Assembly (NCBI GenBank): GCA_963575745.1
Contig: CAUYUJ010016162.1
Coordinates: 228,709 to 292,708 of the forward strand
DNA length: 64,000 nt
Direction: 5' to 3'
Source: Prorocentrum cordatum
Taxonomy: Eukaryota > Sar > Dinophyceae > Prorocentrales > Prorocentraceae
Shown here in pieces: positions 1 through 53,711 of this stretch. The notes under the pieces are model-generated. The model did not search any database, was not told where the DNA came from, and saw only the letters and a program-made list of their open reading frames with translations. The stretch's first letter is position 1; each line of letters opens with the position of its first letter. Made by a program: the position numbers and the translations under genes.

Positions 1-1708
1 CGAGTCATTGTAGCAGACGCTCTCGGTTATTCGTACTGAACGTACTGAACTCGAGGGCAACCACAGAGCTGATAATTACAGAAATCGATTGAGAATTATC
101 AGGCGCGTTCGTCCGTTGAATCAAGAGCTCTGAACTCGGCCTGCTCCCCGAGCTAGGTTCGCGAACCTATTGGTATTGTTCGAGTCATCTTGAGAAGTGC
201 TCTCGATTTTCTGTACTGAAATCGTGCTCGGGGAGGGCTACAGTGCTGCTGGTCACAGGAATCGATTTCGAGACATCAGGCGCGTCCGTTCGTCGAACCG
301 AGAGCTCGGAACTCGGTTTGCTGCTCGAACGAGATCCGCGAAACTGTTGTATTATTCGAGTCATCCTGAGAGGTACTCTCGGTTTTCTGCACTTAACTCA
401 GGCTGTATGGGGGGCTGCAGAGCACAGGAATCGATCCGCAGAATCAGACGCGTCCGCCTGTCGCATTCGGAGGTCTGAACTCAGTTTCATACTCGAGCTC
501 GATTAGAAAACTGTTCGTTTGTTTTGTTAGAGTCACCTTGAGAGGTCTATAATCGCTTGGGCTGAAAAACTAGTCGTTCTCTGAAATTCTTTTTCATATA
601 ATATATTGTCAGGAAGCCCGGCGGTAAGAAAGGTTGACGGTTTACCGCCGGCGCCCAGTTTGCAAGACAAATCTCGACGGACCTTTTGCTGACTGTTGGT
701 CGGTTGAAAATTCTGTTTTCAAAGTTTGACAATTCGTTGGAGCTCTAGTATTCTTTCCCATGATATTCGATCTTATTCCCGCTCGCCATCTTGATCTCAG
801 CTCGATCGGGTAACTTTGAAGGCCAAAAAGCAGGCAGGCGGGAACGGCCGTTTCGAGTCATCTTGATACGCGCTGTCGGTTTTCTCAAGATAACTCGAGC
901 TTTAGGACAACTACAGAGCTGGTCAGCACAGCTAATGCGTTCAGAATGATCAGGCGCGTTCGCCTGTTGAATCCAGAGGTCTGAACTCGGTCTGCTAGCC
1001 GAGCTAGGATCGCAAACCTATTCGTATTATTCGAGTCATTGTAGCAGGCGCTCTCGATTTTTCGTACTTAACTCGATCTGTAGGGCAGCCACAGAGCTGG
1101 TAATCACAGAAATCGATTGAGAATTATCAGGCGCGTTCGTCTGTTGAATCAAGAGCTCTGAACTCGGCCTGCTCCCCGAGCTAGGTTCGCGAACCTATTG
1201 ATATTGTTCGAGTCATCGTGAGAAGTGCTCTCGGTTTTCTGTACTTAAATCGTGCTGGGGGAGGGCTACAGTGCTGCTGGTCACAGGAATCGATTTCGAG
1301 ACATCAGGCGCGTGCGTTCGTCGAACCGAGAGCTCGGAACTCGGTCTACTGCTCGAACGAGATCCGCGAAACTGTTGTATTATTCGAGTCATTCTGAGAG
1401 GTACTCTCGGTTTTCTGCACTTAACTGAGGCTGTATGGGGGGCTGCAGAGCTGGTAATCACAGGAATCGATCCGGAGACGTCAGACGCGTCCGCCTGTCG
1501 CATTCAGAGGTCTGAACTTGGTTTCATACTCGAGCTCGATTGGAAAACTGTTCGTTTGTTTTGTTAGAGTCATCTTCAGAGGTCTATAATCGCTTGGGCT
1601 GAAAAACTAGTCGTTCTCTGAAACTCTTTTTCGCATTATATATTGTCAGGAAGCTCTACGAGTCCCCCGGCGGTAAGAAAGGTTGACGGTTTACCGCCGT
1701 CGCCCAGT
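1..1708 (+). repeat. Family A repeat array, two copies
   Basis: The first copy enters from outside the window and ends at the CAGT at 656-659; the second runs 660-1708 and starts truncated at the 'caagacaaatctcgacgg' part of the unit. Each copy carries several sub-repeats of about 175 bp (recurring 'gaactcggtctgctgcccga', 'cgtattgttcgagtcatc', 'aactcgggctgtaggg') and ends in the hairpin CCGGCGGTAA / TTACCGCCGG. The first copy's tail has lost the TCTACGAGTCCC part ('aggaagcccggcggtaag'). Short ORFs of 60-98 codons recur here, but they follow the repeat units and show no coding signature of their own, so I call none as a gene. Confidence 0.85.
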
Positions 1709-1902
1709 AACTCGTAGAGCTTCCCTTAGCTAGTTATAGCTGGAAGCTTAGAGTAATTCCGGCGCGCTGGAGAGCTAGTTGGCTCGGAAAAAAAGAACTG
1801 AACTTAACTCGTAGAGCTTCCCCTAGCTAGTTATAGCTGGAAGCTTAGAGTAATTCTGGCGCGCTGGAGAGCTAGTTGGCTCGGAAAAAAAGAATTGAAC
1901 TT
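1709..1902 (+). repeat. Tandem family A head segments (97 bp x 2)
   Basis: Two near-identical 97-bp heads, 1709-1805 and 1806-1902, each starting AACTCGTAGAGCTTCC and ending in an A-run. They are the 5' end of family A (CTCGTAGAGCT, 'agctagttggctcgg'). The second runs on into a full copy. Similar isolated head pieces occur at 10098-10230 and 22720-22860, so short head fragments are a recurring feature. Confidence 0.8.
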
Positions 1903-4900
1903 TTCACATCTTTTGGTCGGTTGAAAATATTGTTCTCGAAATTTGACAATTCGTAAGAGCTCTAGTATTTTTTCCCGTGATATTCGATCTTATTCCCGCT
2001 CGCCATCTTGATCTCAGCTCGATCGGGTATCTTTTACTGCCAAAAAGCACACTGGCGGGATCGGCCGTTTCGAGTCATCTTGATACGCGTTGTCGGTATT
2101 TTGTACTTAACTCGAGCTGTAGGACAGCTACAGAGCTGGTCAGCACACCTATCGCATTCAGAATCATCAGGCGCGTTCGCCTGTTGAATCCAGAGGTCTG
2201 AATTCGGTTTGCTAGCCGAGCTAGGTCCGCAAACCTATTCGTATTATTCAAGTCATCTTCATTCGCACTGTCGGTATTCTGAACTTAACTCGAGATATAG
2301 GACAGCTACAGAGCTGGTAAGCACGCCTCATCGACTCAGAATCATCAGGCGCGTTCGGCTGTTCCAACCAGAGGTCTGAACTCGGTCTGATAGCCGAGCC
2401 AGGTCCGCAAACCTATTCGTATTATTCGAATCATCTTGATAGGCGCTCTCGGTTTCCTGTACTTAACTCGAGCTATAGGACAGCTACAGGGCTGATAGTC
2501 ACAGAAACCGATTCAGAATTATCAGTCGCGTTTGTCTGTCGAATCCAGAGCTCTGAACTCTGTCTGCTGCGCGATCCAGAATCACGAAACTGTTCGTATT
2601 CTTCCAGTCATCTTGAGAGCTACTGTCGGCGTTCTGCACTTAACTCGGGCTGTAGGGAGGCTGCAGGGCGGGTAATCACAGGAATCGATTCGGAGACATC
2701 AGACGCGTCCGTCTGTCGCATTCAGAGGTCTGACCTCGGTCTGATACTCGAGTTGGGCTGAAAAACTATTCGTTCTCTGCAATTTTTTCGACATTATATG
2801 TTGTCAGGAAGCTCTACGAGTCCCCCGGCGGTAACAAAGGTTGACGGCTTACCGCCGGCGCCCAGTAACTCGTAGAGCTTCCTTTAGCAAGTTATTGCTG
2901 GAAGCTTTAGAGTAATTCCGGAGCGCTGGAGAGCTAGTTGGCTCGAAAAAAAAGAACTGAACTTTTCACAACTTTTGCTCGGTTGAAAATTTTGTTCTCA
3001 AAATTTGACAATTCGTTTGAGCTCTAGTATTTTTTTCCGTGATATTCGATCTTATTCCCGCTCGCCATCTTGATCTCAGCTCGATCGGGTACCTTTTGCT
3101 GCCAAAAAGCACACTGGCGGGATCGGCCGTTTTGAGTCATCTTGTCACGCGCCGTCGGTATTGTGTACTTAACTCGAGCTGTAGGGCAGCTACAGAGCTG
3201 GTAAGCACACCTATCGCAATCAGAATCATCAGGCGCGTTCGCCTGTTGAATCTAGAGGTCTGAACTCGGTCTGTGAGCCGAGCTAGGTCCGCAAACCTAT
3301 TCGTATTATTCGAGTCATCTTGACAGACGCTCTCGGTTTTCTGTACTTAACGCGAGCTATAGGGCAGCTACAGAGCTCATAGTCACAGAAATCGATCGGG
3401 AATCATCAGGCGCGTTCGTATGTTGATTCGAGAGCTCTAAAATCGGCCTGCTGCTCGAGCTAGGTTCGCCAAACTATTCGTATTGTCCGAATCATCTTGA
3501 AAAGTGCTTTAATTATCTGCACTCAACTCGTGCTGGGGGATGGCTAGAGTGCTGCGGGTCACAGGAATCGATTTGCACAGATCAGGCGCTTCCGTCGGTC
3601 AATTGTAGAGCTCGGAACTCGGTCTGCTGCTCGATTTAGATCTGCGAAACTATTGTATTATTTGAGTCATCCTGAGAGATGTTGTCAGTTTTCTGCACTT
3701 AACTCGGTCTTCAGCGGGGCTGCAGGGCTGTTAATCACATGGGTCGATCAGACGCGTGCGCCTAGCGCATTCAGAGGTCTGAATTCGGTTTGATACTCGA
3801 TCTGGATTGCGAAACTATTTGTTTTTTCTTAGAGTCTTTTTGAGAGGTATGAAATCGCTTGGGCTGAAAAAAGTAGTCGTTCTCTGGAGTTTTTTCCCAC
3901 ACTATATGCTGTCAGGAAGCTCTACGAGTCCCCCGGCGGTAACAAAGGTTGACGGTTTACCGCCGGCGCCCAGTTTCACATCTTTTGGTCGGTTGAAAAT
4001 TTTGTTCTCGAAATTTGACAATTCGTTAGAGCTCTAGTATTTTTTCCCGTGATATTTGATCTTATTCCCGCTCGCCATCTTGATCTCAGCTCCATCGGGT
4101 ATCTTTTACTGCCAAAAAGCACACTGGCGGGATCGGCCGTTTCGAGTCATCTTGATACGCGTTGTCGGTATTTTGTACTTAACTCGAGCTGTAGGACAGC
4201 TACAGAGCTGGTCAGCACACCTATCGCATTCAGAATCATCAGGCGCGTTCGCCTGTTGAATCCAGAGGTCTGAACTCGGTTTGCTAGCCGAGCTAGGTCC
4301 GCAAACCTATTCGTATTATTCAAGTCATCTTGATTCGCACTGTCGGTATTCTGAACTTAACTCGAGATATAGGACAGCTACAGAGCTGGTAAGCACGCCT
4401 CATCGACTCAGAATCATCAGGCGCGTTCGGCTGTTCCAACCAGAGGTCTGAACTCGGTCTGCTAGCCGAGCCAGGTCCGCAAACCTATTCGTATTATTCG
4501 AATCATCTTGATAGGCGCTCTCGGTTTCCTGTACTCACTCGAGCTATAGGACAGCTACAGGGCTGATAGTCACAGAAACCGATTCAGAATTATCAGTCGC
4601 GTTTGTCTGTCGAATCCAGAGCTCTGAATTCTGTCTGCTGCGCGATCCAGAATCACGAAACTGTTCGTATTCTTCCAGTCATCTTGAGAGCTACTGTCGG
4701 CGTTCTGCACTTAACTCGGGCTGTAGGGAGGCTGCAGGGCGGGTAATCACAGGAATCGATTCGAAGACATCAGACGCGTCCGTCTGTCGCATTCAGAGGT
4801 CTGACCTCGGTCTGATACTCGAGTTGGGCTGAAAAACTATTTGTTCTCTGCAATTTTTTCGACATTATATGTTGTCAGGAAGCTCTACGAGTCCCCCGGC

Positions 4901-6045
4901 GGTAACAAAGGTTGACGGTTTACCGCCGGCGCCCAGTAACTCGTAGAGCTTCCTTTAGCAAGTTATTGCTGGAAGCTTTAGAGTAATTCCGGAGCGCTGG
5001 AGAGCTAGTTGGCTCGAAAAAAAAGAACTGAGCTTTTCACAACTTTTGCTCGGTTGAAAATTTTGTTCTCAAAATTTGACAATTCGTTTGAGCTCTAGTA
5101 TTTTTTTCCGTGATATTCGATCTTATTCCCGCTCGCCATCTTGATCTCAGCTCGATCGGGTACCTTTTGCTGCCAAAAAGCACACTGGCGGGATCGGCCG
5201 TTTTGAGTCATCTTGTCACGCGCCGTCGGTATTGTGTACTTAACTCGAGCTGTAGGGCAGCTACAGAGCTGGTAAGCACACCTATCGCAATCAGAATCAT
5301 CAGGCGCGTTCGCCTGTTGAATCTAGAGGTCTGAACTCGGTCTGTGAGCCGAGCTAGGTCCGCAAACCTATTCGTATTATTCGAGTCATCTTGACAGACG
5401 CTCTCGGTTTTCTGTACTTAACGCGAGCTATAGGGCAGCTACAGAGCTCATAGTCACAGAAATCGATCGGGAATCATCAGGCGCGTTCGTATGTTGATTC
5501 GAGAGCTCTAAAATCGGCCTGCTGCTCGAGCTAGGTTCGCCAAACTATTCGTATTGTTCGAATCATCTTGAAAAGTGCTTTAATTATCTGCACTCAACTC
5601 GTGCGGGGGGATGGCTAGAGTGCTGCGGGTCACACAAATCGATTTGCACAGATCAGGCGCTTCCGTCGGTCGATTCTAGAGCTCGGAACTCGGTCTGCTG
5701 CTCGATTTAGATCTGCGAAACTATTGTATTATTTGAGTCATCCTGAGAGATGTTGTCAGTTTTCTGCACTTAACTCGGTCTTCAGCGGGGCTGCAGGGCT
5801 GTTAATCACATGGGTCGATCAGACGCGTGCGCCTAGCGCATTCAGAGGTCTGAATTCGGTTTGATACTCGATCTGGATTGCGAAACTATTTGTTTTTTCT
5901 TAGAGTCTTTTTGAGAGGTATGAAATCGCTTGGGCTGAAAAAAGTAGTCGTTCTCTGGAGTTTTTTCCCACACTATATGCTGTCAGGAAGCTCTACGAGT
6001 CCCCCGGCGGTAACAAAGGTTGACGGTTTACCGCCGGCGCCCAGT
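1903..6045 (+). repeat. 2.07-kb tandem duplication of a two-copy family A unit
   Basis: Positions 1903-3974 and 3975-6045 are near-identical, with a constant offset of 2071-2072 bp between matching points. Each half has two family A copies, with internal hairpin ends at 2866 and 4937. The second half starts exactly after the CAGT at 3974, at the same internal point ('ttcacatcttttggtcgg') that exists inside copy one. The few differences include single substitutions and a 2-bp difference near 4533. This implies recent duplication by unequal exchange or by retrotransposition of a read-through two-unit transcript. Confidence 0.85.
2807..2882. repeat. Nested palindrome at a family A junction (representative)
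   Basis: Outer arms are GGAAGCTCTACGAG at 2807-2820 and CTCGTAGAGCTTCC at 2869-2882, a perfect 14-bp inverted repeat. Inner arms are CCGGCGGTAA at 2825-2834 and TTACCGCCGG at 2849-2858, around a loop holding AAAGGTTGACGG. The outer palindrome forms only where a copy ending in AGCTCTACGAG is followed by an untruncated copy starting CTCGTAGAGCT. The inner hairpin closes nearly every family A copy; family B has CCGGCGGTGA / TCACCGCCGG. Confidence 0.9.
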
Positions 6046-6388
6046 TGGCCCAGCCGGCCGAGGCGGACAGGACAATGTGGCAACTTTAGGGTGGTTTTGC
6101 GATTTTTTGAAAGATATTTGACCATTCATTTTGAAAAAGCAGATCTTTACGCCCAGCATTGGCATATGAACTCCTCTCTGACAGCAGCTCAGCTCTCTCG
6201 ATGCATTTTTGCATGAGTTGACTCCCGGGAACTGAGCGAATATGAACATCGAAAAAATCGAATTTCAAGATTTTCGAAAAATCTCATTTTTTTTTATTCT
6301 GTGTCGATTCTCTCCACTCTTACTAGTGAGAGGAGCTCTACGAGGTTCCCGGCAGTGACCAGGTTGACGGTTCACCGTCGGCGCCAGT
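6046..6388 (+). repeat. Family B repeat copy
   Basis: About 340 bp, starting 'tggcccagccggcc' directly after a family A CAGT and ending in the family B hairpin 'gaggttcccggcagtgaccaggttgacgg'. Family B has its own body ('gggtggttttgcgattttttgaaagatatttga', 'gagaaagcagat', an 'actcttac' stretch near the 3' end). It shares the head (CTCGTAGAGCT, 'gagctagttggc'), the tail AGCTCTACGAG and the hairpin with family A. Confidence 0.8.
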
Positions 6389-8518
6389 TGCTGGAAGCTC
6401 AGAGTAATTCCGGCGCGCTGGGCTGCCCGAACTAGGTCCGCGAAACTATTCCTATTGTTCGAGTCATCCTGAGAGGTGCTGTCGATTTTCTGCACTTAGC
6501 TCGGGCTGTAGGGGGGCTGCACGGCGAGTAATGACAGGAGTCGATTCGCAGACATCAGACGCGTCCGTCTGTCGCATTCAGAGGTCAAACACTATTCACT
6601 ATAAGTCAGATTGTTGGTCAGTGCTGTCTGTTTTCTCAACTTAAGTCGAGTTAGGAAGCTCTAGGAGTCTCCCGGCGGTAACCAAGGTTGACGGTTTACC
6701 GCCGGTGCCCAGTTGGCAAGAAAAATCTCGACAGAACTTGTGGTGACTTTTGGTCGTTTGAACATTTTCTTCTCGAAATTTGACCATTCGTTAGAGCTCT
6801 AGTATTTTCTTAACATAACTCGAGATTTAGGACATCTACAGAGCTGGTAAGCACAGCTAATCGATGCAGAATGATTAGGCGCGTTCGCCTGTTGAATCCT
6901 AGAGGTCTGAACTCGGTCTGTGAGCCGAGCTAGGTCCGCAAACCTATTCGTATTATTCAAGTCATCTTGATAGAAACTCTCGGTTTTCTGTACTTAACTC
7001 GAGCTGTGCGCTGAGAGGGGGCTCCAGTGCTGGTTGTCATAAGAATCGATTTAAAGAGATCACGCGCGTCCGCCTGTCGAATCCAGAGCTCGCAACCCGG
7101 TCTGCTGCCCGAACTAGGTTCGCGAAACTATTGTATTCTTCGAGTCATCCTGAGAGATACTGTCGGTTCTCTGCACTGACCTCGGGCTGTAGGGGGGCTG
7201 CGGGGCTGGTAATGACAGGAGTTCATTCGCAGACATCAGACGCGTCCGCTTGTCGCATTCAGAGGTCAAAAAATATTCACTCTAAGTCAGAATGTTGATA
7301 GGTGCTGTCGGTTTTCTCAACTTAAGTCGAGCTTGGAAGCTCTACGAGTTCCCCGGCGGTAACCAAGGTTGACGGTTTACCGCCGGCGCCCAGTGATTCC
7401 GGCGCGCTGGAGAGCTAGTTGGCAAGAAAAATCTCGACGGACCTTTTGGTGACTTTTGGTGGGTTGAAAATGACTCGTAGAGCTTCCCTTAGCTAGTTGC
7501 TGGAAGCTTAAGAGTAATTCCGGGGCGCTGGAGAGCTAGTTGGCAAGAAAAGTCTCGACGGAACTTTTGGTGACTTTTGGTCGGTTGAAAATTTTGTTCT
7601 CGAAATTTAACAATTCGTTTGAGCTCTAGTATTTTTTCCCGTGATATTCGATCTTATTCCCACTCGCCATCTTCTCAGCTCGATCGGGTGAATATTACTA
7701 TCGAAAAGCACTCTGGCGGGATCGGCCGTTTTGAGTCATCTTGATATGCACTAACGGTTTTCTGAACATTACTCGAGCTTTAGGACAGCTACAGAGCTGG
7801 TAAGCACAGCTAATCGATGTAGAATGATTAGGCGCGTTCGCCTGTTGAATCCAGAGGTCTGAGCTCGGTCTGTTAGCCGAGCTAGGTCCGCAAACCTATT
7901 CGTATTATTCGAGTCATCTTGACAGGAACACTCGGTTTTCTGTACTGAACTCGAGCTGTAGGACAGCTACAGAGCTGATATTTACAGAACCCGATTCAGA
8001 ATCATCAGTTGCGTTTGTCTGTCGAAACCAGAGCTCTGAACTCGGTCTGCTGCCCGATCTAGAATCGCGAAACTATTCGTATTGGTCGAGTCATCTTGAG
8101 AAGTGCTCTCGGTTTTCTTCACTTAACTCGCGCTAAGGGGGGCTAGAGTGCTGGTGGTGACAGAAACCGATTTGAAGACATCGGGCGCGTCCGCCTGTCG
8201 AATCCAGAGCTCGGAACTCGGTCTGCTGCCCGAATTAGGTTTGCGAACCTATTGTATTGTTCGAGTCATCCTGAGAGGTGCTGTCGGTTTTCTGCACTTA
8301 ACTCGGGCTGTAGGGGGGCTGCAGGGCTGGTAACGAATGGAGTCGACGATTCGCAGACACCAGACGCGTCCGCCTGTCGCATTCAGAGGTCGAAAAATAT
8401 TCACTATGAGTTGGAAGGTTGGTAGGTGCTGTCAGTTTTCTCAACTTGAGTCGAGCTAGGAAGCTCTACGAGTTCCCCGGCGGTAACCAAGGTTGACGGT
8501 TTACCGCCGGCGCCCAGT
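6389..8518 (+). repeat. Family A copies, some internally deleted
   Basis: Three copies end at 6713, 7394 and 8518. The first is only about 325 bp because most sub-repeats are missing. These copies carry a variant 3' part ('aacttaagtcgagctaggaagctctacgag', 'gtaaccaagg') also seen near 23600 and 52870, so family A has at least two 3' subtypes. Head fragments occur again at 7395-7440 and 7470-7550. Confidence 0.8.
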
Positions 8519-8923
8519 TTTGTTTTCGAAATACCTCGTAGAGCTCTTTGGCATCGATGAGCTAGAGGAATTCCGGCGCGGGGTGGAGCTAGTTGGCCCA
8601 GCCGGCCGAGGCGGACAATGTGATAACTTTTGGGTGGTTTTGCGAAAATTTGAAAGATATTTGACCATTTATATTGAGAAAGCAGATTTTTACGCCGAGC
8701 ATCGGCATATGAACTTCTCTCTAACATCAGCTCAGCTCTCTCGATGCATTTTTGCATGAGTTGACTTCCAGGAACTGAGCGAATATGAACATCGAAAAAA
8801 TCGAATTTCAAGATTTTCGAAAACTCTCAATTTTTTTGTATTCTGTGTCGATTCTTTAGCAGTGAGAGAGCTCTACGAGGTTCCCGGCGGTGACCAGGTT
8901 GACGGTTTACCGCCGGCGCCAGT
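8519..8923 (+). repeat. Family B copy after a short family A stub
   Basis: A stub of about 17 bp of family A ('tttgttttcgaaat') is followed by an untruncated family B head, ACCTCGTAGAGCTC, at about 8535. The body ends in the B hairpin before 8923. The stub shows that fusion of two repeat pieces within one inserted unit is possible. Confidence 0.8.
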
Positions 8924-11359
8924 TTGAACATTCGTTAGAGCTCTAATATTTTTTTCCATGATATTCGATCTTTTTGCCGCTCGCCATCTTGATCTCAGCT
9001 CGATCGGGTAGCTTTTACTGCCAAAAAGCAGGCAGGCGGGATCGGCCGTTTCGAGTCATCTTGATGCGCGCTGTCGGTTTTATCAAGATAACTCGAGCTT
9101 GAGGACAGCTACAGAGCTAGTGAGCACAGCTAATCGATGCAGAATGATCAGGCGCGTTCGCCTGTTGAACCCAGAGGTCTGAACTCGGTCTGCTAGCCGG
9201 GCTAGGTCCGCAAACCTATTCGTATTATTCGAGTCATCTTGACATGCGCTCTTCGTTTTCTGTACTTAACTCGAGCTGCACGACAGCTATATGGCTGATA
9301 CGTACAGAATCTGATTCAGACTCCTTAGTGGCCGTTGTCTGTTGAATTCAGACCTCCGAACTCGGTCTGCTCTCCGATCTAGAATCACAAAACTATTTCT
9401 ATTGTTCGAGTCGCTTGCGAGATGCTGTCGGTTCTCTGCACTTAACTCGGGCTGTACGGGGGCTGCATGGCTGGTAATCACTGGAGTCGATTCGGAGACA
9501 TCAGGCGCGTTCGCCTGTGGAATCCAGAGCACCGAACTCGGTCTGTTGCCCGAACTAGGTCCGCGAAACTATTCGTATTGTTCGAGTCATCCTGAGAGGT
9601 GCTTTCGGTTTCCTGCACAACTCGGCTGCAGGGAGGCTGCAGGGCTGGTAATCACAGGGATCGATCCAGAGACATCATACACGTCCGCCTGTCGCATGCA
9701 GAGGTCTGAACTCGGTCTGATACTCGAACTAGGTTTGCCAAACTATTCGTATTGTTCGAGTCATCCTGAGAGGTGCTGTCGATTTACGCACGTAACTTGG
9801 CTGTAGGAGAGCGACAGAGCTCGTACAGAGGACAATCTAGAAGCATCGGGGGCGTTCGGCTGTTTCATCCGAGAGGTATCAAATTGCCTGGGCTGAAAAA
9901 CTATTTTTTCTGTGTAATTTCTTTCGACATTACATGTTGTCAGGAAGCTCTACGAGTCCCCCGGCGGTAAGAAAGGTTGACGGTTTACCGCCGGCGCCCA
10001 GTGGACGCTACTTAGTCTCGACGGACTTTTCGGTGACTTTTGGTCGGTTGAAAATGCCTCGAAGAGCTCTTCGTCGTCGATGAGCTAGAGGAATAACTCG
10101 TAGAGCTTCCCTTAGCAAGTTATTGCTGGAAGCTAAGAGTAATTCCGGGGCGCTGGAGAGCTAGTAACTCGTAGAGCTTCCCTTAGCAAGTTATTGCTGG
10201 AAGCTTAAGAGTAATTCCGGCGCGCTGGAGAGCAAGTTGGCAAGAAAAATCTCGACGGACCTTTTGGTGACTTTTGGTCGGTTCATTCGTTGGAGCTCTA
10301 GTATTTTTTCCCGTGATATTCGATCATATTCCCGCTCGCCGTCTTGATCTCAGCTCGATCGGGTACCTTTTGCTGCCAAAAAGCAGGCAGGCGGGATCGC
10401 CCGTTTCGGGTCATCTTGTCACGCGGTGATGGTTTTCTCAAGATAACTCGAGCTTCAGGACAGCTACAGAGCTGGTGAGCACATCTAATTGATTCAGAAT
10501 GATCAGGCGCGTTCGCCTGTTGAACCTAGAGGTCTGAACTCGGTCTGCTAGCCGAGCTAGGTCCGCAAATCTATTCGTATTATTCGAATCATTTTGACAG
10601 ACACTCTCGGTTTTCTGTACTTAACTCGATCTACAGGACAGCTACAGAGCTTATACGGACAGAATCTGATTCAGAATCATCAGTGGCCGTTGTCTCTTGA
10701 ATCCAGAGCTCTGAACTCCGTCTGCTGCCCGATCTAGAATCGCGAAACTATTCGTATTGTGCGAGTCATCTTGAAAGATGCTGTCGGTTCTCTGCACTTA
10801 ACTCGGGCTGTAGGGGAGCTGCATGGCTGGTAATCACTGGAATCGATTCAGAGACATCAGGCGCGTCCGCCTTTCGAATCCAGAGCTCCGAACTCTGTCT
10901 GCTGCCCCAACAGGTCCGCCAAACTGTTCGTATTGTTCGAGTCATCCTGAGAAGTGCTGTCGGTTTCCTGCACATAACTCGGGCTGTTGGGGGGGCTGCA
11001 GGGCTGGTAATCACTGGAGTCGATTCGGAGACATCATACGCGTCTGCCTGTCGCATGCACAGGTCTGAACTCGGTCTGATACTCGAGCTAGGTTCGCCAA
11101 ACTATTCGTATTGTTCGAGTAATCTTGAGAGGTGCTGTCGATTTACGCACGTAACTCGGGCTGTAGCAGAGCTACAGAGCTCGTACGAAGACAATCTAGA
11201 AGCATCGGGGGCGTGCGGCTGTTGCATCCTAGAGGTTTGAAATTGCTTGGGCTGACAAACTATGTTTTCTGTGTATTTTTTTCGACATTATATGTTGTCA
11301 GGAAGCTCTGCGAGTCCCCGGCGGTAAGAAAGGTTGACGGTTTACCGCCGGCGCCCAGT
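8924..11359 (+). repeat. Family A copies with head fragments
   Basis: Copies end at 10002 and 11359. The first starts truncated ('ttgaacattcgttag') right after CAGT. The second begins with two tandem head pieces (about 10098 and 10165). The 8924-10002 copy is near-identical to the copy ending at 14886, which lacks about 60-80 bp corresponding to roughly 9660-9720. This is a recent dispersed duplication about 5 kb apart. Confidence 0.8.
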
Positions 11360-42871: not shown

Positions 42872-42906
<35 letters not shown>

Positions 42907-42911
42907 CGCAC

Positions 42912-42942
<31 letters not shown>

Positions 42943-43555: not shown

Positions 43556-45087
43556 AGGATGTCTCGAGCGAAACGCTTGTTTTTCAGAATTTGTTGAGGA
43601 TGTCTCGAGCGAAACGCTTGTTTTGTGTTATAGATTGTCCTCTCCTGGGGGCCTGAATTCTGAGGATCTCTCAAGTGGATTCGTGCCCTGGTCTTGAGGA
43701 TGCCTCGAGCGAGACGCTTGGTTTCACGCCTCCAGGTGGCCCAGACAGATGTCTAGCATGAGGATTTGTTGAGGATGTCTCGAACCAGAGGCTTGTTTTC
43801 ACGTGTCCAGGTCGCCCAGGCGGATGTCTAACATGAGCATTTGTTGAGGATGTCTCGAGCGAGACGCTTGTTTGCACGTGTCCAGGTTGCCCAAGCGGAT
43901 GTCTAGCATGAGGATGTGCTGACAACGTCTTGAGCGAAACGCGTGTTTTCACGTGTCCAGGTCGCCCAGGCACAGCACAGCCCTCGGCACGGTACATCAA
44001 TATCGATACCTTTAGCATTGCAGCCTGGCATGTTGCTTGGCACGTTCCGCGGAGCGTCCCGTGGCGAGTCCCCCTGGCACGTCGCGCGGTGCACGTCCAT
44101 TGGCACGTTCCGTAGCGCGTCCCCTTGGCACGTCCCACGGTGCGTGCCCATGGCACGTCCCCTGGCACGTCCCCTGGCGCGTCCCTTGGGACGTTCCGCG
44201 GCGCGTCCTCTTGGCATGTTCCCTCTGTCGATTAGTTCTGGGGCAGCTACCATCTGCTCAGGCAGCTCGAGCTTACGATCCAGATCAGTTCGGTGAGGAC
44301 TCGGATGCCAGGGAGGACTCGATCCACAACGCTATATCTATATCTATAGAGAGAGAGAGAGAGAGAGAGCACAATCGCGGCATGACGCATCGCAGTTCAG
44401 CACGGCCCAGCACAGCACAGCCGTCGGCACGGTACATCAATATCGATACACTCAACTATACACTTTGGCACGAGAGAGAGAGAGAGCACAATCGCGGCAT
44501 CACGCATCGCAGTTCAGCACGGCCCAGCACAGCACAGCCGTCGGCACGGTACATCAATATCGATACACTCAACTATACACTTTGGCACGTTCCTTGGCGC
44601 GTTCCGTGGCGAGTCCACCTGGCACGTCGCGCGGCGCGTCCCATGGCACGTCCCTCGGCACGTCCATTGGCACGTTCCGTAGCGCGTCCCCTTGGCACGT
44701 CCCACGGTGCGTCCCCATGGCACGTCCCCTGGCACGTCGCCTGGCGCGTCCCTTGGGACGTTCCGCGGCGCGTCCTCTTGGCATGTTCCCTCTGTCGATT
44801 AATTCTGGGGCAGCTACCATCCTGAGCAGCTCGAGCTTACGCTCCAGATCAGTTCGGTGAGGACTCGGATGCCAGGGAGGACTCGATCCACAACGCTATA
44901 TAGAAAACAATCGCGGCATGGCACATCGCAGTTCAGCACGGCGTAGCACAGCACAGCCCTCGGCACAGTACATCATCATCGATACATTTAGCATTGCATG
45001 TGCCCGTCGCCCAATCAGGTGTCTTTGAAATGTTACAATGCCTTACATTTCTATATTCCTTTCCGGGTTCGTGGGTCGATCATGTTC
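43556..45087. repeat. Right arm of the large inverted repeat
   Basis: Reverse complement of 38145-39540 in the same block order: GAGGATGTCTCGAGC units (43556-43960), the GGCACGTCC-rich blocks (43960-44270 and 44580-44820), and the outer end 'ggttcgtgggtcgatcatgtt' at about 45066-45087. It is longer than the left arm because of an extra segment (about 44330-44590) with GA-microsatellites and a local duplication. Confidence 0.8.
44340..44590. repeat. (GA)n microsatellites and a roughly 110-bp duplication
   Basis: 'gagagagagagagagagaga' near 44347-44371 and a shorter one near 44473-44487. Each is followed by an almost identical stretch ('gcacaatcgcggcat', 'gtacatcaatatcgatacac', 'ctcaactatacactttggca'). 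Confidence 0.85.
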
Positions 45088-45660
45088 TACTGCGCTGTCC
45101 CAGCGCGTTGGGCTGCCACGAGGCAGATCCTGCAGGACCAAGATTCAGCTGCGCGTGAGAGCGACCCTTCGCCAAATTGACCTTTGGTGCGGGCCCACCA
45201 GGGCTCCCTCAGGCACTGGCCCACGCGCTTGGATCTGGCCCCCTCCCTCCCCCGCAGCCCCCCCCCCAAGCTGCACACCAAAGGTCACCCCTACCTGCAG
45301 GGCCACGCCCTCCGTGCCACCGAGAGCTCATGGCAGCGTCTCCTTTCCCGATCCGCCCCAGGTTCTCCAGACACACATACCGCTACCCTTGCCTCGTTTG
45401 CGCCTCGTTGGGCCTCCTGGGAGGCCCTCGTCGCCACCGCTGGATTCGCCTCGGGAGTCTGGTCAGAAGGCACCCCAGGAGAGGGCCATGAAGCATCGGT
45501 ATCGATACCGTCTGGTGCCTCAAATATCTTGCATGCCTCGCCCTGATGAGATTGGTAAGAGCGGTTTTCACAATCGTTGGCCACGATATGTTGGGGGGTC
45601 ACGGCATTGTTGTGAGGTGTACGTTGATTTACCTCTCTCCTTCTTGTTCTATCTTCGAGT
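45088..45660. other. Stretch without recognised features
   Basis: Pro/Ala-rich open frames on the + strand and one on the - strand; none shows a domain. GC-rich. I call nothing here. Confidence 0.4.
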
Positions 45661-46340
45661 CGGCGACTACGAGGCGTCGGCGACTACGAGGCGTAGCTCG
45701 CGACGCACACATTCGAGATCCGATGTCAAAAAGGTTGCTCCTAATGTGGTTTCCTCGCTCTCGGCCCTCCTTTCCCCCTCCTCCATTCCTGCCCCCGCGG
45801 CCTCTCGCGTTTAATTTTGACGAGGGCCGGCAGAAGTCTCCACGGGCATGCTCCCGCAGAAAGGCACTCGGGATTACACGCACGCCCGAGCTGCTCAAGC
45901 ATGTCGTTTTCCCCGCCGCTGCGTTCGCAGAAAGGCACCCGGGGTTGCACGCACACCCGGGCTGCTGACGCAGTTTTTCTGTTTACTCGACGCTTCCGCG
46001 CGCCATCCGCTGCAGGGCGGGGTGCGGCCGGGGACTTTTCCAGCGCCTTCTGCATGCGACTTCCGCACGCAGTACCGCATCGTTTCCTCTTGCTCCTCCC
46101 GCGGCGGTGCGCGCCGGCGCAGCCGACGGGCCGGCCCGGCGATGCGTCGGCGACTACGAGGCGTAGCTCGCGACGCACACATTCGAGATCCGATGTCAAA
46201 AAGGTTGCTCCTGATGTGGTATCCTCGCTCTCGGCCCTCCTTTCCCCCTCCTCCATTCCTGCCCCCGCGGCCTCTCGTGTTCTTCATTTTGACTAAGGCC
46301 GGCAGGAGTCTGCCCGGGCATCCCCCCCGCAGAAAGGCAC
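45660..46340. repeat. Direct repeat of about 190 bp (45675-45866 and 46145-46340)
   Basis: Both copies run from 'gtcggcgactacgaggcgta' through 'cattcgagatccgatgtcaa' and 'ctccattcctgcccccgcgg' to 'cgcagaaaggca'. They are almost identical for the first 150 bp. In the first copy the opening 'ggcgactacgaggcgt' is itself doubled. Two 'cgcagaaaggcac' words with 'cacgcacgcccg' types between them form smaller repeats (45850-45970). Confidence 0.85.
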
Positions 46341-46429
46341 GACATCACGACATCACGTCCTCATGACACCTCCCATGGGGCACCTACATGGCAAGTGCGA
46401 TCTCTGTGATGGTGTCGCAACCGACCTCA

Positions 46430-46630
46430 CTTACACACTACACCACGCCGCACCGCACCGCACCGCACCGCACCACACCGCACCGCACACACACACGCAC
46501 ACACACACACACACACACAACACACCACACCACACCACACACACGCACACACCACACCACACACCACGCCACACAACATCACGCCACATCACACCGTACC
46601 CCACACCACGCCACGCCACGCCACGAGATC
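46430..46630. repeat. CACACC/CA microsatellite
   Basis: 'caccgcaccgcaccgc', a (CA)n stretch near 46488-46520 and 'cacaccacaccac' words. Simple-sequence DNA. Confidence 0.95.
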
Positions 46631-46689
46631 ATGACACCACCCACGGGACACGACGGGAGAGCGACATGACGACTGTGATGTCTGTGTTG

Positions 46690-46826
46690 ATATCACAATC
46701 GACGCGCCGCTGGCGCAGCCGGCGCCGCTGGCGCAGCCGGCGCAGCCGGCGCAACCAGCGCGACCGGCGCGACCGGCGCGACCGGCGCAACCGGCGCAAC
46801 CGGCGCGACCGGCGCAGCTGGCGCAG

Positions 46827-46875
<49 letters not shown>

Positions 46876-46906
46876 CGCAACCGGCGCGACCGGCGCAGCC
46901 GGCGCA

Positions 46907-46956
<50 letters not shown>

Positions 46957-46960
46957 CGCA

Positions 46961-46992
<32 letters not shown>
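46690..46992. repeat. 9-bp minisatellite (CGCGACCGG)n, second tract
   Basis: About 300 bp of the same 9-mer as at 42735-43060, with CGCAACCGG and CGCAGCCGG variants. It begins in less regular 'cgctggcgcagccgg' units. Confidence 0.95.
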
Positions 46993-47305
46993 CTCCGGTT
47001 CCAGATCAGCCTCTTCTCGCGGTCGGGGCTCCAGACCCCGTTATTTTTCGAGGATTCTGCGAAAAACGCTCCGCACCCTCTTTTTTACGAGGGAAAGCGG
47101 GGGTCTGCGGACCCCGTTATTTATCGAGGATCCGAGATGGGGGGCGAACTTTCCTCGAGCGGGCACGCACAAAACGCACTTTTTCTAAAACAATCAGCAC
47201 TTTACCTCGTTATTTATCGCAAATAATTTCGCCGGCGCTTGACCCGTCAGATCCGGGGGTAAACGGCTAAAAGAGAACCCTGGGCCCGCGCCCTTTCCGG
47301 GAAAA
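46993..47305. repeat. Dispersed repeat, also at 49838-50125
   Basis: Matches 49838-50125 almost base for base ('gtcgcggtcggggctccaga', 'gggtctgcggaccccgttat', 'caaaacgcactttttctaaa', 'cctcgttatttatcgcaaat'). Contains the palindrome GGGTCTGCGGACCC. Confidence 0.85.
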
Positions 47306-47309
47306 ATCA

Positions 47310-47640
47310 ATGTTTCTTTTTTTCGAGAAATGCTCCCAGAAGCTTTCTCTTTCGACTCCGAGCACTCTTACGCGTGAAATGAGATCTACGAGGTTCCCGG
47401 CGGTGACCAGGTTGACGGTCCACCGCCGGCGCCAGTTGGCCGACCCGGCCAGAAAGGACAAAGTGACAACTTTTGGGTGGTTTTGTGATTTTTTGAAAGA
47501 TATTTGACCATTTATTTTGAGAAAGCAGATTTTTCGCACCTGTAGACGACTATGAGGGCCTCTCCGTCTTAATATGAGCTCTCTACATTCTCTTTTACTA
47601 TCAAAACACTTGGCGACCAACTTTATGTCGACATGAAACA
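47310..47640 (+). repeat. Family B fragments
   Basis: The 3' part of a B copy with hairpin, ending in CAGT at 47435, followed by the 5' part of another (47436-47640). The same class as the left array, placed among other repeats. Confidence 0.8.
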
Positions 47641-48480
47641 TGATCGACCCACGAACCCGGAAAGGAATATAGAACTGTAACATATGGCAGCGTTTTCAAA
47701 GACACCTGATTGGGTGACGGGCAAATGCAATGCTGAGTGTATCGATCTTGATGTACCCTGCCGAGGGCTGTGCTGTGCTGCGCCGTGCTGAATTGCGATG
47801 TGCCATGGCGCAACTATGCTCTATAGCGTCGTGGATCGAGTCCTCCTTTGCATCCGAGTCCTGACCGAACTGATCTGGATCTTAAGCTCGAGCTGCCTGA
47901 ACACATAGTAGCTGCCCCAGAGCTAATGGACAGGGGAACATGCCAGGAGGACGCGCCGCGAAACGTCCCAAGGGATGCGCCAGGCGACGTGCCAGGGGAC
48001 GTGCCATGGGGTCGCACCGTAGGACGTGCCAAGGGGACGCGCTACGGAACGTGCCAATGGATGTGCCACGGAATGTGCCAGGGGACGCGCCACGCGACGT
48101 GCCAGGGGGACTCGCCAAGGGACGCCCCACGGAACGTGCCAAGGAACGTGCCAAGTTGCAATGCTGAGTGTATCGATCTTGATGTACCCTGCCGAGGGCT
48201 GTGCTGTGCTGCGCCGTGCTGAATTGCGATGTGCCATGCCGCGGTTGTGCTCTATAGCGTCGTGGATCGAGTCCTCCTTTGCATCCGAGTCCTGACCGAA
48301 CTGATCTGGATCTTAAGCTCGAGCTGCCTGAACACATAGTAGCTGCCCCAGAGCTAATGGACAAGGGGAACATGCCAGGAGGACGCGCCGCGAAACGTCC
48401 CAAGGGATGCGCCAGGCGACGTGCCAGGGGACGTGCCATGGGGTCGCACCGCGGGACGTGCCAAGGGGACGCGCTACTGA
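47641..48480. repeat. GTGCC-rich repeat blocks, same orientation as the left inverted-repeat arm
   Basis: Begins 'gatcgacccacgaacccgg' as at 38145. Two blocks of about 420 bp (about 47720-48140 and 48165-48480) share 'gtatcgatcttgatgtaccc', 'gaactgatctggatcttaag' and the 12-bp GACGTGCCAGGG words. Confidence 0.85.
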
Positions 48481-49837
48481 ACGTGCTGGGGACAAGCGTT
48501 TCGCTCGAGACATCCTATCAAAATCATCCGAATTCCTACGCGCGGGACGCGGCACGCGCGAGACATCCTCGGAATTCCTGTGAGCGGGACACGAAAACAA
48601 GCATTGCGCCTGAGACATCCTCTGAATTCTGGCCCCCCACGAGGCCCCCGCTCGAGACATCCCCCAATTTTGCAAAACCAGCGTTTCGCTCGAGACATCC
48701 TCAACAAATTATGAAAAACATGCCAGGAGGACGCGCCGCGAAACGTCCCCAGGGACGCGCCAGGCGACGTGCCAAGGGACGTGCCATGGGGTCGCACCGT
48801 AGGCCGTGCCAAGGGGACGCGCTACGGGACATCCTCAAAATTCCTGCGCGCGGGACGTGGCACGCGCGAGACATCTTCCGAATTCCTGCGAGCGGGACGT
48901 GAAAACAAGCATTTCGCCTGAGACATCCTCTGAATTCTGGCCCCCCACGAGGCCCCCGCTCGAGACATCCCCAAGTTTGCAGAAACCAGCGTTTCGCTCG
49001 AGACATCCTCAACAAATTATGAAAAACAAGCGTTTCGCTCGAGACATCCGGTCAAAATTCTAAGAAATCCTGACAAAACAAACGAATTAGTCGAGACATC
49101 CTCGAAATTCCTGCGCGCGGGACGCGGCCCGCGCGAGACATCCTTGGAATTCCCGCGAGCGGGACACGAAAACAAGCATTTCGCCTGAGACATCCTCTGA
49201 ATTCTGGCCCCCCGCTCGAGACATCTCCAAATTTTGCGGAAACCAGCGTTTCGCTCGAGACATCCTCCACAAACTATGTAAAATAAGCGTTTCGCTCGAG
49301 ACATCCTGCCAAAGTTCTAAGAAATCCTGACAAAACAAGCGAATTAGTCGAGACATCCTCGAAATTCCTGCGCGCGGGACGCGGCACGCGCGAGACATCC
49401 TCGGAATTCCTGCGCGCAAATTATGAAAAACAAGCGTTTCGCTCGAGACATCCGGTCAAAATTCTAAGAAATCCTGACAAAACAAACGAATTAGTCGAGA
49501 CATCCTCGAAATTCCTGCGCGCGGGACGCGGCCCGCGCGAGACATCCTTGGAATTCCCGCGAGCGGGACACGAAAACAAGCATTTCGCCTGAGACATCCT
49601 CTGAATTCTGGCCCCCCGCTCGAGACATCTCCAAATTTTGCGGAAACCAGCGTTTCGCTCGAGACATCCTCCACAAACTATGTAAAATAAGCGTTTCGCT
49701 CGAGACATCCTGCCAAAGTTCTAAGAAATCCTGACAAAACAAGCGAATTAGTCGAGACATCCTCGAAATTCCTGCGCGCGGGACGCGGCACGCGCGAGAC
49801 ATCCTCGGAATTCCTGCGCGCGGGGCGCTTTTCCGAG
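48481..49837. repeat. GAGACATCC repeat blocks, copies 2 and 3
   Basis: 48481-48720 and 48830-49013 are mosaic units, with a GTGCC piece between them (48721-48830). 49014-49413 and 49414-49825 are near-identical 400-bp blocks matching 42286-42700. Copies 2 and 3 share 'gacatcctgcc' where copy 1 has 'gacatcccgcc', so they are each other's closest relatives. Confidence 0.85.
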
Positions 49838-50125
49838 TCGCGGTCGGGGCTCCAGACCCCGTTATTTTTCGAGGATTCTGCGCAAAACGCTCCGCACCCT
49901 CTTTTTACGAGGGAAAGCGGGGGTCTGCGGACCCCGTTATTTATCGAGGATCCGAGATGGGGGGCGAACTTTCCTCGAGCGGGCACGCACAAAACGCACT
50001 TTTTCTAAAAAAATCAGCACTTTACCTCGTTATTTATCGCAAATAATTTCGCCGGCGCTTGACCCGTCAGACCCGGGGGTAAACAGCTAAAAGAGAACCC
50101 TGGGCCCAAGCCCTTTCCGGGAAAA
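49838..50125. repeat. Second copy of the 46993-47305 repeat
   Basis: Near-identical, with small differences such as an extra A in 'ctaaaaaaatcagc' and one T fewer in 'ccctctttttacgag'. Both copies lie directly before family B fragments, so the block of dispersed repeat plus B tail was duplicated together. Confidence 0.85.
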
Positions 50126-53100
50126 ATCATGTTCTCTCTTTTTCGAGAAATGCTGTGAGAGCCCTCTTTTTTGATGATGAGCTCTTCTACGCGTGTTAGG
50201 AGCTCTACGAGGTTCCCGGCGGTGACCAGGTTGACGGTTCACCGCTGGCGCCAGTAATTCCGGAGCGCTGGAGAGCTAGTTGACAAGGAAAATCTCGACG
50301 CACATTTTGAGGAATTTTGGTCGGTTGAAAATTTTGTTCTCGAATTTCAACAATTCGTTTGAGCTCTAGTTTTTTTTCCCGTGATATTCGATCTTATTCC
50401 CGCTCGCCATCTTGATCTCAGCTCGATCGGGTACTTTTTACTGCCAAAAAACGTCCAGGCGGGATCGGCGGTTTCGAGTCATCTTGATACGCGCTGTCGG
50501 TATTTTGCACTTAACTCGAGCTATAGGGCAGCTACAGAGCTGGTAAGCACAGCTAATACCTCGTAGAGCTCTTCGGCATCGATGAGCTAGAGGAATTCCG
50601 GCGCGGGGTGGAGCTAGTTGGTCGACCCGGCCAGAAAGGACAAAGTGGTAACTTTTGGGTGGTTTTGCAATTTTTTGAAAGATATTTGACAATTCATGTT
50701 GAGAAAGCAGATTCTTCGCACCTGTAAACGACTATGAGGGCCTCTCTGTCTTAGTATGAGCTCTGTAGGCGCACTTTTTCAAAACACTTGGCGGAAACAT
50801 CTTCATGTCGACACGAAAAAAAATCAATTCTTCTTTTTTTCGAGAAATGCTTCCAGAAGCTCTCTCTTTCGACTCCGAGCACTCTTACGCGTGAAATGAG
50901 CTCTACGAGGTTTCCGGCGGTGACCAGGTTGACGGTTCACCGCCGGCGCCAGTCGATTCAGAATGATCAGGCGCGTTCGCCTGTTGAACCCAGAGGTCTG
51001 AACTCGGTCTGCTAGCCGAGCTAGGTCCGCAAACCTATTCGTATTATTCGAGTTATCTTGACAGACAAATCGAGCTACAGGACAGCTACAGAGCTGATAC
51101 GTGCAGAATCTGATTCAGAATCATCAGTGGCCGTTGTCTGTTGAAACCAGAGCGCTGAACTCGGTCTGCTGTCCGATCTAGAATCGCGAAACTATTCGTA
51201 TTGTTCGAGTCATCTTGAGAGATGCTGTCGGTTCTCTGCACTTAACTCGGGCTGTAGGGGGGCTGCATGGCTGGTAATGACTGGAATCGATTCGGAGACA
51301 TCAGGCGCGTCCACCTTTCGAATCCAGAGCTCCGAACTCTGTCTGCTGCCCGAACTAGGTCTGCGCAACTATTCGTATTGTTCGAGTCATTCTGAGAGGT
51401 GCTGTCGGTTTCCTGCACTTAACTCGGGCTGTAGGGGGGCTGCAGGGCTGGTAATCACAGGAATCGATTCAGAGACATCAGACGCGTCCGCCTGTCGCAT
51501 GCAGAGGTCTGAACTCGGTCTGATACTCGAGCTAGATTCGCGAAACTATTTGTATTGTTCGAGTGATCTTGAGAGGTGCTGTCGATTTTCGCACGTAACT
51601 CGGGCTGCTGTAGAAGAGCTACAGAGCTCGTACAGAAGACAATCCAGAAGCATTGGGGGCGTTCGGCTGTTGTCTGAAATTGCTTGGGCTGAAAAATTAT
51701 TTTTTCTGTGTAATTTTTTTTCGACATTATATGTTGTCAGGAAGCTCTACGAGTCCCCGGCGGTAACAAAGGTTGACGGTTTACCGCCGGCGCCCAGTAC
51801 CTCGTAGAGCTCTTCGACATCGATGAGCCAGAGGAATTCCGGCGCGGGGTGGAGCTAGTTGGCCGACCCGACCAGAAAGGACAATGTGACAACTTTGACT
51901 CGTAGAGCTTCCCTGAGCTAGCAGCTGGAAGCTTAAGAGTATTTCGGACGCACTGGCGGGCTAGTTGGCTCGAAAACTCTCGACGGAACTTTTGCTGACT
52001 TTTGGTCGGTTGAAAATTTTGTTTTCAAAATTTGACCATTCGTTAGAGCTCTAGTATTTTTCCCGGGATATTCGATCTTATTCCCGCTCGCCATCTTGAT
52101 CTCAGCTCGATCGGGTGAATATTATTATCGAAAAGCACTGTGGCGGGATCGGCCGTTTCGAGTCATCTTGATACGCGCTGACGGTTTTCTGAACATAACT
52201 CGAGCTTTAGGACAGCTACAGAGCTGGTAAGCACAGCTAATCGATGTAGAATGATTAGGCGCGTTCGCCTGTTGAATCCAGAGGTCTGAACTCGGTCTGT
52301 TAGCCGAGCTAGGTCCGCAAACCTATTCGTATTATTCGAGTCATCTTGACAGGAACTCTCGGTTTTCTGTACTTAACTCGAGCTGTAGGACAGCTACAGA
52401 GCTGATGTTTACAGAAACCGATTCAGAATCATCAGTTGCGTTTGTCTGTCGAATCCAGAGCTCTGAACTCGGTCTGCTGCCCGATCTAGAATCGCGAAAC
52501 TATTCGTATTGGTCGAGTCATCTTGAGAAGTGCTCTCGGTTTTCTTCACTCAACTCGCGCTCAGGGGGGCTACAGTGCTGGTGGTCACAGGAATCGATTT
52601 GAAGACATCAGGCGTGTCCGCCTGTCGAATCCAGAGCTCGGAACTCGGTCTGCTGCCCGAATTAGGTCTGCGAAACTATTGTATTGTTCGAGTCATCCTG
52701 AGAGGTGCTGTCGGTTTTCTGCACTTAACTCGGGCTGTAGGGGGGCTGCAGGGCTGGTAATGATAGGAGTCGATTCGCAGACATCAGACGCGTCCGCCTG
52801 TCGCATTCAGAGGTCAAAAAATATTCACTATGAGTCGGAATGTTGGTAGGTGCTGTCGGTTTTCTCAACTTAAGTCGAGCTAGGAAGCTCTACGAGTCTC
52901 CCGGCGGTAACCAAGGTTGACGGTTTACCGCCGGCGCCCAGTTGGTCGGTTTTGCTAAGACTTGAAATATATTTGACCATTTATTTGGAGAAAGCAGATT
53001 TTTCGCACCTGTAAACGAATATGAGGGCCTCTCCGTCTTAATATGAGCTCTCTAGATGCACTTTTACCATCAAAACACTTGGCGCAACCAACTTTATGTC

Positions 53101-53711
53101 GACATGTATAAAAACATGTTTTCTCTTTTTCGAGAAATGCTTCCAGAAGCCCTCTCCTTTGATGCTGAGCACTCTTACGCATGCTAGGAGCTCTACGAGG
53201 TTCCCGGCGGTGACCAGGTTGACGGTTCACCGCCGGCGCCAGTTCGGACGCGCTGGAGAGCTAGTTGGCAAGAAAAATCTCGACGGAACTTTTCGTGACT
53301 TTTGGTCGGTTGAAAATTTTGTTCTCGAAATTCAACAAGTCGTTAGAGCTCTAGTATTTTTTCCCGTGATATTCGATCTTATTCCCGCTCGCCATCTTGA
53401 TCTCAGCTCGATCGGGTGAATATTACTATCGAAAAGCACTGTGGCGGGATCGGCCGTTTCGAGTCATCTTGATACGCGCTGACGGTATTCTGAACATAAC
53501 TCGAGCTTTAAGACAGCTGCAGAGCTGGTAAGCACAGCTAATCGATGTAGAATGATTAGGCGAGTTCGCCTGTTGAATCCAGAGGTCTGGACTCGGTCTG
53601 CTAGCCGAGCTAGGTCCGCAAACCTATTCGTATTATTCGAGTCATCTTGACAGGAACTCTTGGTTTTCTGTACTTAACTCGAGCTGTAGGACAGCTACAG
53701 AGCTGATATTT
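50126..53711 (+). repeat. Second array of family A and B copies
   Basis: CAGT ends at 50255 (B), 50953 (A 5' part fused to B at about 50554), 51798 (A), 52942 (B head fused to A at about 51897) and 53243 (B). The last A copy is cut at about 53711 by a minisatellite. Starts after CAGT are again variable: 'aattccggagcgctgg', 'cgattcagaatg', 'acctcgtagagc', 'tggtcggttttgc', 'tcggacgcgctgg'. Confidence 0.85.

Follow-up and report, generated by a model that had tools for sequence, protein, structure and literature searches.

A one-way nested array of probable Helentron-type transposons in the dinoflagellate Prorocentrum cordatum, with LINE-type insertions in their terminal hairpins

Non-autonomous DNA transposons of the HINE/DINE-1 type have been described as carrying asymmetric subterminal inverted repeats (subTIRs), preferring TT and inserting without target-site duplication (PMC4067079, PMC7492417; these and all other papers are cited here from excerpts). 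The published criteria give these repeats a length of 12-15 bp, a 5' distance of 2-4 nt and a 3' distance of 38-60 bp, 11 common subTIR bases being the threshold for one family (PMC4067079); they also place a palindrome of 5-10 bp at 8-35 bp from the 3' end, with central tandem repeats or a microsatellite as optional features (PMC4067079, PMC7492417). Helitrons have also been mentioned among the repeats of Symbiodinium genomes (PMC9087856). Here we analyse a stretch of 64,000 nucleotides from the dinoflagellate Prorocentrum cordatum (assembly GCA_963575745.1, contig CAUYUJ010016162.1, positions 228,709 to 292,708 of the forward strand; hereafter the window), in which two repeat families, A and B, are present in many copies at positions 1-53711. 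Whole units of both families are embedded in further A and B units, following a T, without duplication and in the same orientation, and the anatomy of their ends indicates that both are probably non-autonomous Helentron/Helitron2-type (HINE/DINE-1-like) transposons nested in one direction.

The A units are 0.9-1.2 kb long (12 copies compared) and contain central repeats of about 177 bp; the B units measure about 0.4-0.5 kb (8 copies) and no central repeats were seen in them. Although the bodies differ, head, tail and hairpin are common to both, as the initial annotation of this DNA had noticed and the aligned ends confirm, and its suggestion that one machinery serves the two families is probably right. 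The heads are precise, beginning with RACTCG or ACCTCG, and the constant 3' end is composed of an inverted repeat, a hairpin with a 10-bp stem, and CAGT, the stem stopping, as judged by eye, about 8 nt short of the 3' end in A and 7 nt short of it in B. Reading ACTCGTAGAGCTTCC in A and ACCTCGTAGAGCTC in B, the head repeat has its reverse complement near the 3' end, at a distance of 41-45 nt in 19 of 21 pairs; the other two pairs are shortened by a substitution. These subTIRs reach up to 16 bp, start at base 1-2 of the unit in 19/21 pairs, and have 11 bases in common between A and B by eye, CTCGTAGAGCT. Folding of the 5' hairpin gave z values of -4.2, -5.3 and -6.4 for three A heads and a weak -1.9 for one B head, and that of the 3' hairpin -2.5 and -3.0 for two tails. 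Poly-A tails are absent from the A and B units, whose longest stop-free stretches, in three copies, run from 95 to 179 residues.

The window contains 38 hairpin 3' ends (37 found by the tail pattern and one more, 25113, by alignment), all on the + strand, in line with the approximately 35 junctions previously reported. A third tail pattern likewise matched 38 times on the + strand but never on the minus strand, where blastn found no match for the three A/B copies queried. The hairpin arms are adjacent in 33 of the 38, split by retro-inserts in four, and altered by a base change in one (6388). Twenty-two heads lie in the array, 21 recognised by the head pattern and one (10056) by alignment; a further pattern match at 59611 was excluded, as it sits in other DNA.

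What follows each 3' end was established by aligning the window to eight A/B copies with a model free to jump between positions. The jumps are mostly paired: a host stops at position p, at least one complete element follows, and the host resumes at p. At 16 of the 38 ends, the tally from this alignment places the right half of a host next and its left half directly upstream of the whole insert. Five ends are direct tandems with a full head next (1708, 2866, 4937, 22719 and 51798), and 13 are one-sided, the left half of the resumed copy lying outside the window. The initial annotation had taken the following copies to be 5'-truncated products of target-primed reverse transcription, built onto the end of the previous copy. 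It was right that the next copy starts at differing A or B positions, as seen in the alignment, and that copies insert into copies of their own family, as the 16 two-sided cases demonstrate. The apparent truncations, however, are mostly the resumption points of interrupted hosts; the 15 junctions it named are real, but seven are two-sided nested, one is a tandem, six are one-sided and one is uncertain (Table 1). When a host is split near its 5' end, heads stack to the left and headless bodies queue to the right, and it is this arrangement that yields apparent constant 3' ends with shifting starts.

Some hosts were interrupted more than once. Only 14 bp of host A separate the inserts 7472-8518 and 8533-8923 before the host resumes at 137, and the three-piece B host at 10056-16987 was split by two A insertions, each interrupted in turn. 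The A host of the dimer 1806-3974 is followed by an A partner of its own (4938-6045); insert dimer and host dimer are 98.6% and 99.4% identical, while the two members of a dimer are 84.6% alike. The joints at 13787/13788, 24796/24797, 37304/37305 and 37967 look like deletion or recombination.

Uninterrupted versions of the host sites were sought for 18 candidate inserts, the 16 two-sided ones plus 15337-16521 and 51799-53243, by joining 15 bp from each flank and searching the rest of the window. With no more than 3 edits in 30, an uninterrupted counterpart of the joined flanks was found for 15 of the 18 candidates, and for 15 of the 16 two-sided ones, compared with 17 of 306 mismatched control joins, which reach at most 3 edits partly because different hosts are cut at equal target sites. 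Joins of 20 bp per side, evaluated by a different method, agreed for the 17 of 18 candidates covered. There is no target-site duplication in the joined flanks, which read straight through, a result in contradiction with an origin of A and B by target-primed reverse transcription. That claim of the initial annotation also fails on the precise 5' ends and the lack of poly-A, and we reject it on the strength of two-sided nesting together with the empty sites.

The choice of target appears not to be random. The base preceding the head is T in 22/22 cases, and the preceding triplet is AGT in 9, AAT in 9, CTT in 3 and TTT in 1, so that AGT or AAT accounts for 18/22, although A[AG]T occupies 2.7% of array positions. 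Five of the nine AGT triplets are the CAGT end of the preceding copy; thus the previous copy's end does serve as a target, as had been proposed, but for 5 of 22 heads, and the retro-type inserts of the window join within the hairpin and not after CAGT. T is also frequent, though not invariable, directly after the tail. In a reverse check, the context preceding the 60 bases after each end was read in uninterrupted copies, leaving out the five tandems, two ends for which there was no copy (8518 and 10002), two with a single copy (15297 and 16987) and 29526, where the next insert is too close. In the remaining 28 of 38 ends the commonest context has T in 24 and A[AG]T in 19, T being absent at 16521, 25113, 28498 and 37967. 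Among the one-sided ends, 11 of 13 were assignable by script, with T in 11/11 and A[AG]T in 9/11, so that the apparently truncated copies likewise begin at insertion targets. Within the window, start points are not broadly spread, as truncation would have predicted, but cluster after AGT, AAT and CTT, in A mostly within the first 140 bp.

Two further biases, counted among copies that may share ancestry, concern position and direction. Ten of the 13 two-sided insertions into A fall within its first 140 bp, a stretch with 6 of the 29 A[AG]T sites in the reference A, and all 22 heads have the same orientation though the other strand offers more A[AG]T sites (1211 vs 814). One orientation throughout, combined with 5'-biased self-insertion, is unusual.

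The class membership of A and B rests on end anatomy. They show the HINE features of subterminal repeats, a 3' palindrome, a T-type target without duplication and, in A, central repeats. Like HINE/DINE-1 elements, including the oyster Cg_HINE (PMC4067079, PMC7492417), they have a repeat complementary to the 5' repeat, a palindrome near the 3' end and a T-type target; they differ in the 5' repeat at base 1-2, the GC-rich hairpin, the CAGT end, the dinoflagellate host, the dense nesting in one orientation, and an autonomous partner, of which none was seen in the window. The Helitron2 element FoHeli of Fusarium resembles them in its asymmetric terminal inverted repeats and hairpins, and in self-insertion yielding copies that are nested or composite and carry short 5' duplications, but its target and end sequences differ, and opposite-orientation self-insertion was considered there, whereas here 22/22 agree (PMC5148889). 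Helraiser, a canonical Helitron, shares the lack of duplication and a 3' hairpin as likely terminator (PMC4778049). A and B are not canonical Helitrons themselves, given that their ends are RACTCG/ACCTCG and CAGT instead of 5' TC and 3' CTRR, and that the target is not between A and T.

Several observations weigh against a rolling-circle, Helentron-type origin of the array. A scan of 15 of the 56 open reading frames (ORFs) listed for the window brought up no Rep/helicase. Mite HINEs have their 5' repeat 2-4 nt from the end, whereas here the distance is 0-1 nt. The pairing of heads with tails itself favours this origin, as 311 of 315 cells pair (21 pairs, 15 columns) and at four of the columns both sides have changed, but this count had no shuffle control and its middle columns anchored the comparison; moreover, the paired changes mostly separate A from B, so they possibly reflect few events. 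The 13 one-sided ends show the right host half only and need a head stack upstream, none of which was seen in the window, and four other ends (15297, 16521, 25113 and 37967) are of uncertain type. One of the 16 two-sided cases (29530-30021) rests on just 3 host bases, and the best match of its join sits at another junction (7394) and is hence weak. Three of the 18 joins need more edits (4 at 51799, 5 at 10056 and 6 at 15337), and at 28498 uninterrupted copies have AAC, not T. Finally, a single orientation in 22/22 heads follows no known rule for Helitrons.

Retroelements are nevertheless present in the window, and in this respect the initial annotation, which saw a retroelement array, was partly correct, even though the A and B units are not themselves target-primed. 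A long interspersed element (LINE) with two ORFs occupies the hairpin of an A tail (Table 1). Its 1365-residue product matches PF00078 (E 2.2e-10) and the LINE-1 ORF2p chain in the PDB (E 5.7e-7); for an endonuclease domain upstream of the reverse transcriptase there was no Pfam match and no credible PDB match, and a single-sequence model had a predicted local distance difference test (pLDDT) score of 37. The dinoflagellate spliced-leader motif occurs at two sites in the window, about 31143 and 39742, as suits DNA of dinoflagellate origin, and from about 31143 the LINE starts with a full spliced leader followed by a second, partial one. Towards their 3' ends, three shorter retro-inserts (R1, R2 and R3) share 261-371 bp at 96-99% identity. 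Comparison of the LINE with the R copies over their 3' sequence gave an alignment score of 29 against a shuffle mean of 28.8, and no shared sequence is claimed. The first approximately 40 bp of R3 are A-tail sequence; by eye, R3 (19643-19700) seems to start with CTCAAG plus A-tail sequence, as if trans-splicing of its transcript had used the CAG of an A tail.

The LINE, R1, R2, R3 and a 38-bp A-ended piece all join the tail at one point, the edge of the hairpin loop (5/5, by eye). Two of the five, R1 and R3, have duplications of about 12 bp, and the LINE, R2 and the 38-bp piece have none of that length. These are the target-primed-looking insertions of the window, joined inside the A/B hairpin and not after CAGT, and the best reading is that the LINE homes on the hairpin of A and B tails. 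The LINE was ruled out as the driver of A and B, since joint and target differ. Site-specific non-long-terminal-repeat retrotransposons such as R2 offer a comparison: like them, the LINE, the R copies and the 38-bp piece all go to a single point in a repeated target, with short duplications in two cases, but here that target is provided by a DNA transposon, in the form of its terminal hairpin, and the LINE has a spliced leader at its start.

How might such an array arise? A Rep/helicase supplied in trans would nick the 5' end, one strand would be peeled off as far as the 3' hairpin, acting as the terminator, and the copy would be joined to the target after T. The first hairpin would sometimes be passed, so that a dimer is moved. 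The dimer 1806-3974 inside its own copy fits read-through of one terminator, although a segmental or RNA route is also possible; the terminator read-through shown for Helraiser, together with its circles, serves as a model (PMC4778049). Orientation and 5' bias may come from a transposase tethered at resident copies, from a one-way single-stranded target, or from an RNA step. Separately, the LINE with its reverse transcriptase and the A-ended relatives take the hairpin loops of A and B tails as insertion sites. We tentatively propose, as a possible but far from secure reading, a self-targeting, orientation-locked rolling-circle system in which residents draw new copies to CAGT and to their first ~140 bp, each insertion renewing the target and so building a one-way nested array, with a LINE family homing on the transposon hairpin.

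Duplication-free DNA transposition of another kind, by a different HUH family or a recombinase-type element and not by Helentron rolling circle, seems unlikely. It gains from the fact that the insertion pattern alone does not identify the enzyme and that the ORFs scanned contained no transposase gene; asymmetric inner repeats, both hairpins, the T target and central repeats nevertheless reproduce the HINE layout in the published descriptions excerpted above.

It is very improbable that A and B are retroelements whose copies were primed at the previous 3' end and 5'-truncated by incomplete reverse transcription. The telomeric retrotransposons HeT-A and TART form head-to-tail rows in one direction with constant 3' ends and shifting starts, and the same pattern, the 13/38 ends without a left host half in the window and the presence of a reverse transcriptase gene would all suit such an origin. 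However, the joints of A and B lack A-tails, and the missing host halves are found upstream, directly before the whole insert at 16/38 ends. Starts are not random but follow T, mostly A[AG]T, duplications are wanting, and the reverse-transcription-type inserts of the window join elsewhere, in the hairpin.

We give no more credence to insertion at the RNA level into array transcripts, with return to DNA via reverse transcription and recombination. Although this would account for the single orientation of 22/22 heads in spite of the excess of A[AG]T on the other strand, and although the ends pair and a source of reverse transcriptase is present, the ends are not splice-site-like by eye, a T target is not exon-like, and two related steps would have left no direct trace. 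Growth of a satellite by unequal crossing over, or a misassembled repeat, is hardly tenable: the 177-bp repeats are satellite-like and the joints 13787/13788, 24796/24797 and 37304/37305 have no element end, but crossing over would not put a complete unit with exact ends at a non-homologous position 16 times.

The span 1-53711, previously treated as one array, does contain many A/B copies but is not array throughout: 31147-37189 is the LINE, 14887-15260 and 18022-21518 are mostly retro-inserts, and 38145-47317 and 47639-50120 are GC-rich passenger DNA. The two passenger segments, G1 and G2, lie at the same place in two B units and have both ends in common (88.6% over 854 bp, 97.5% over 284 bp), and given these B may be capable of mobilising cargo of several kb. 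Inverted repeats at 38143-38750 and 44483-45084 are 96.5% identical over ~606 bp, continuing at about 91%, and enclose a single-exon ORF of 594 residues (39785-41569) just after the second spliced-leader motif; the segment 38143-45084 is perhaps a terminal inverted repeat element or a captured retrogene. A run of 89 T lies within a B unit (29840-29928), and the 39 bp that separate a CAGT end from the following head at 15298-15336 correspond to neither family. Directly after the end of the nested array, an 8-bp unit (TCGCCGGG) is repeated about 114 times (53751-54668), and an ORF with DnaJ and WW domains follows at 56489-57283. Rfam gave no matches at gathering thresholds, the hairpin pattern had no exact match in viral_contigs or genome_contigs, neither of which holds dinoflagellate genomes by its description, and a literature search found no paper on this array.

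Table 1. Coordinates of the nested A/B units, retro-inserts and passenger DNA in the window.
Feature	Position	Strand	Details
Nested and tandem A and B array, left part	1..14886	+	jumping alignment; tails and heads
Dimer of two A units (1806-2866, 2867-3974) inside A unit (1709-1805 + 3975-4937)	1806..3974	+	empty site 1 edit in 30
Whole A unit in A host, about position 121	7472..8518	+	alignment; 3 edits
Whole B unit in the A host carrying 7472-8518, about position 137	8533..8923	+	alignment; 2 edits
B host in three pieces (10056-10094, 12508-12529, 16666-16987)	10056..16987	+	alignment; outer site 5 edits, inner sites 1 and 1
Reference whole A unit, ~177-bp central repeats, in A host between AGT and T (position 72)	10166..11359	+	1 edit
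A 5' end example: subterminal inverted repeat and 5' hairpin	10166..10215	+	folding z -6.4; pairs with 3' repeat
A 3' end example: 10-bp-stem hairpin, then CGCCCAGT	11310..11359	+	folding z -2.5; tails aligned
Whole B unit in A host, position ~70	12596..12991	+	alignment; 2 edits
R1, short retro-insert in A-tail hairpin	14887..15260	+	duplication (AA)GAAAGGTTGACG
R2, retro-insert in A tail	18022..19642	+	duplication none seen
R3, retro-insert, 343-aa ORF (19693-20724)	19658..21518	+	flanked by ACAAAGGTTGAC
A unit with internal deletion, in A host at position ~72	22792..23680	+	1 edit
38-bp A-ended insert in B hairpin, same point as other retro-inserts	25046..25083	+	
A unit carrying whole B unit (25487-25885), in A host at ~121	25402..26812	+	2 edits and 1 edit
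A unit carrying whole B unit (28100-28498), same A host as 25402-26812, ~810	27523..29142	+	0 and 3 edits
LINE-like element in hairpin of A tail	31147..37189	+	ORFs 31335-32666 (443 aa), 32700-36797 (1365 aa, reverse transcriptase)
G1, GC-rich passenger DNA inside B unit	38145..47317	.	alignment
G2, GC-rich passenger DNA in another B unit, same place as G1	47639..50120	.	alignment
Whole B unit in A host, about position 324	50558..50953	+	0 edits; perfect empty site elsewhere in window
B unit in tandem after A end, interrupted at 98 by whole A (51897-52942)	51799..53243	+	inner 3, outer 4 edits
Junctions named in the initial annotation, two-sided nested	3974, 8923, 11359, 23680, 26812, 28498, 50953	+	
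Other junctions named in the initial annotation	tandem 1708; one-sided 659, 6045, 6713, 7394, 50255, 53243; uncertain 16521	+	
One-sided ends	659, 6045, 6388, 6713, 7394, 10002, 21558, 25387, 29526, 37223, 47436, 50255, 53243	+	alignment

A pattern that looks like truncation can come from repeated self-insertion of whole elements, and tables of element ends alone are therefore misleading. If the orientation lock and the 5' bias hold genome-wide, they would suggest that Helentron-type transposases choose targets while tethered or in single-stranded DNA, and would offer a transposon route to satellite-like arrays in dinoflagellates. The origin of the Helentron endonuclease from a LINE has been discussed (PMC4067079), and the homing of a LINE on a Helentron-like hairpin, if true, would offer a present-day model for that gain.

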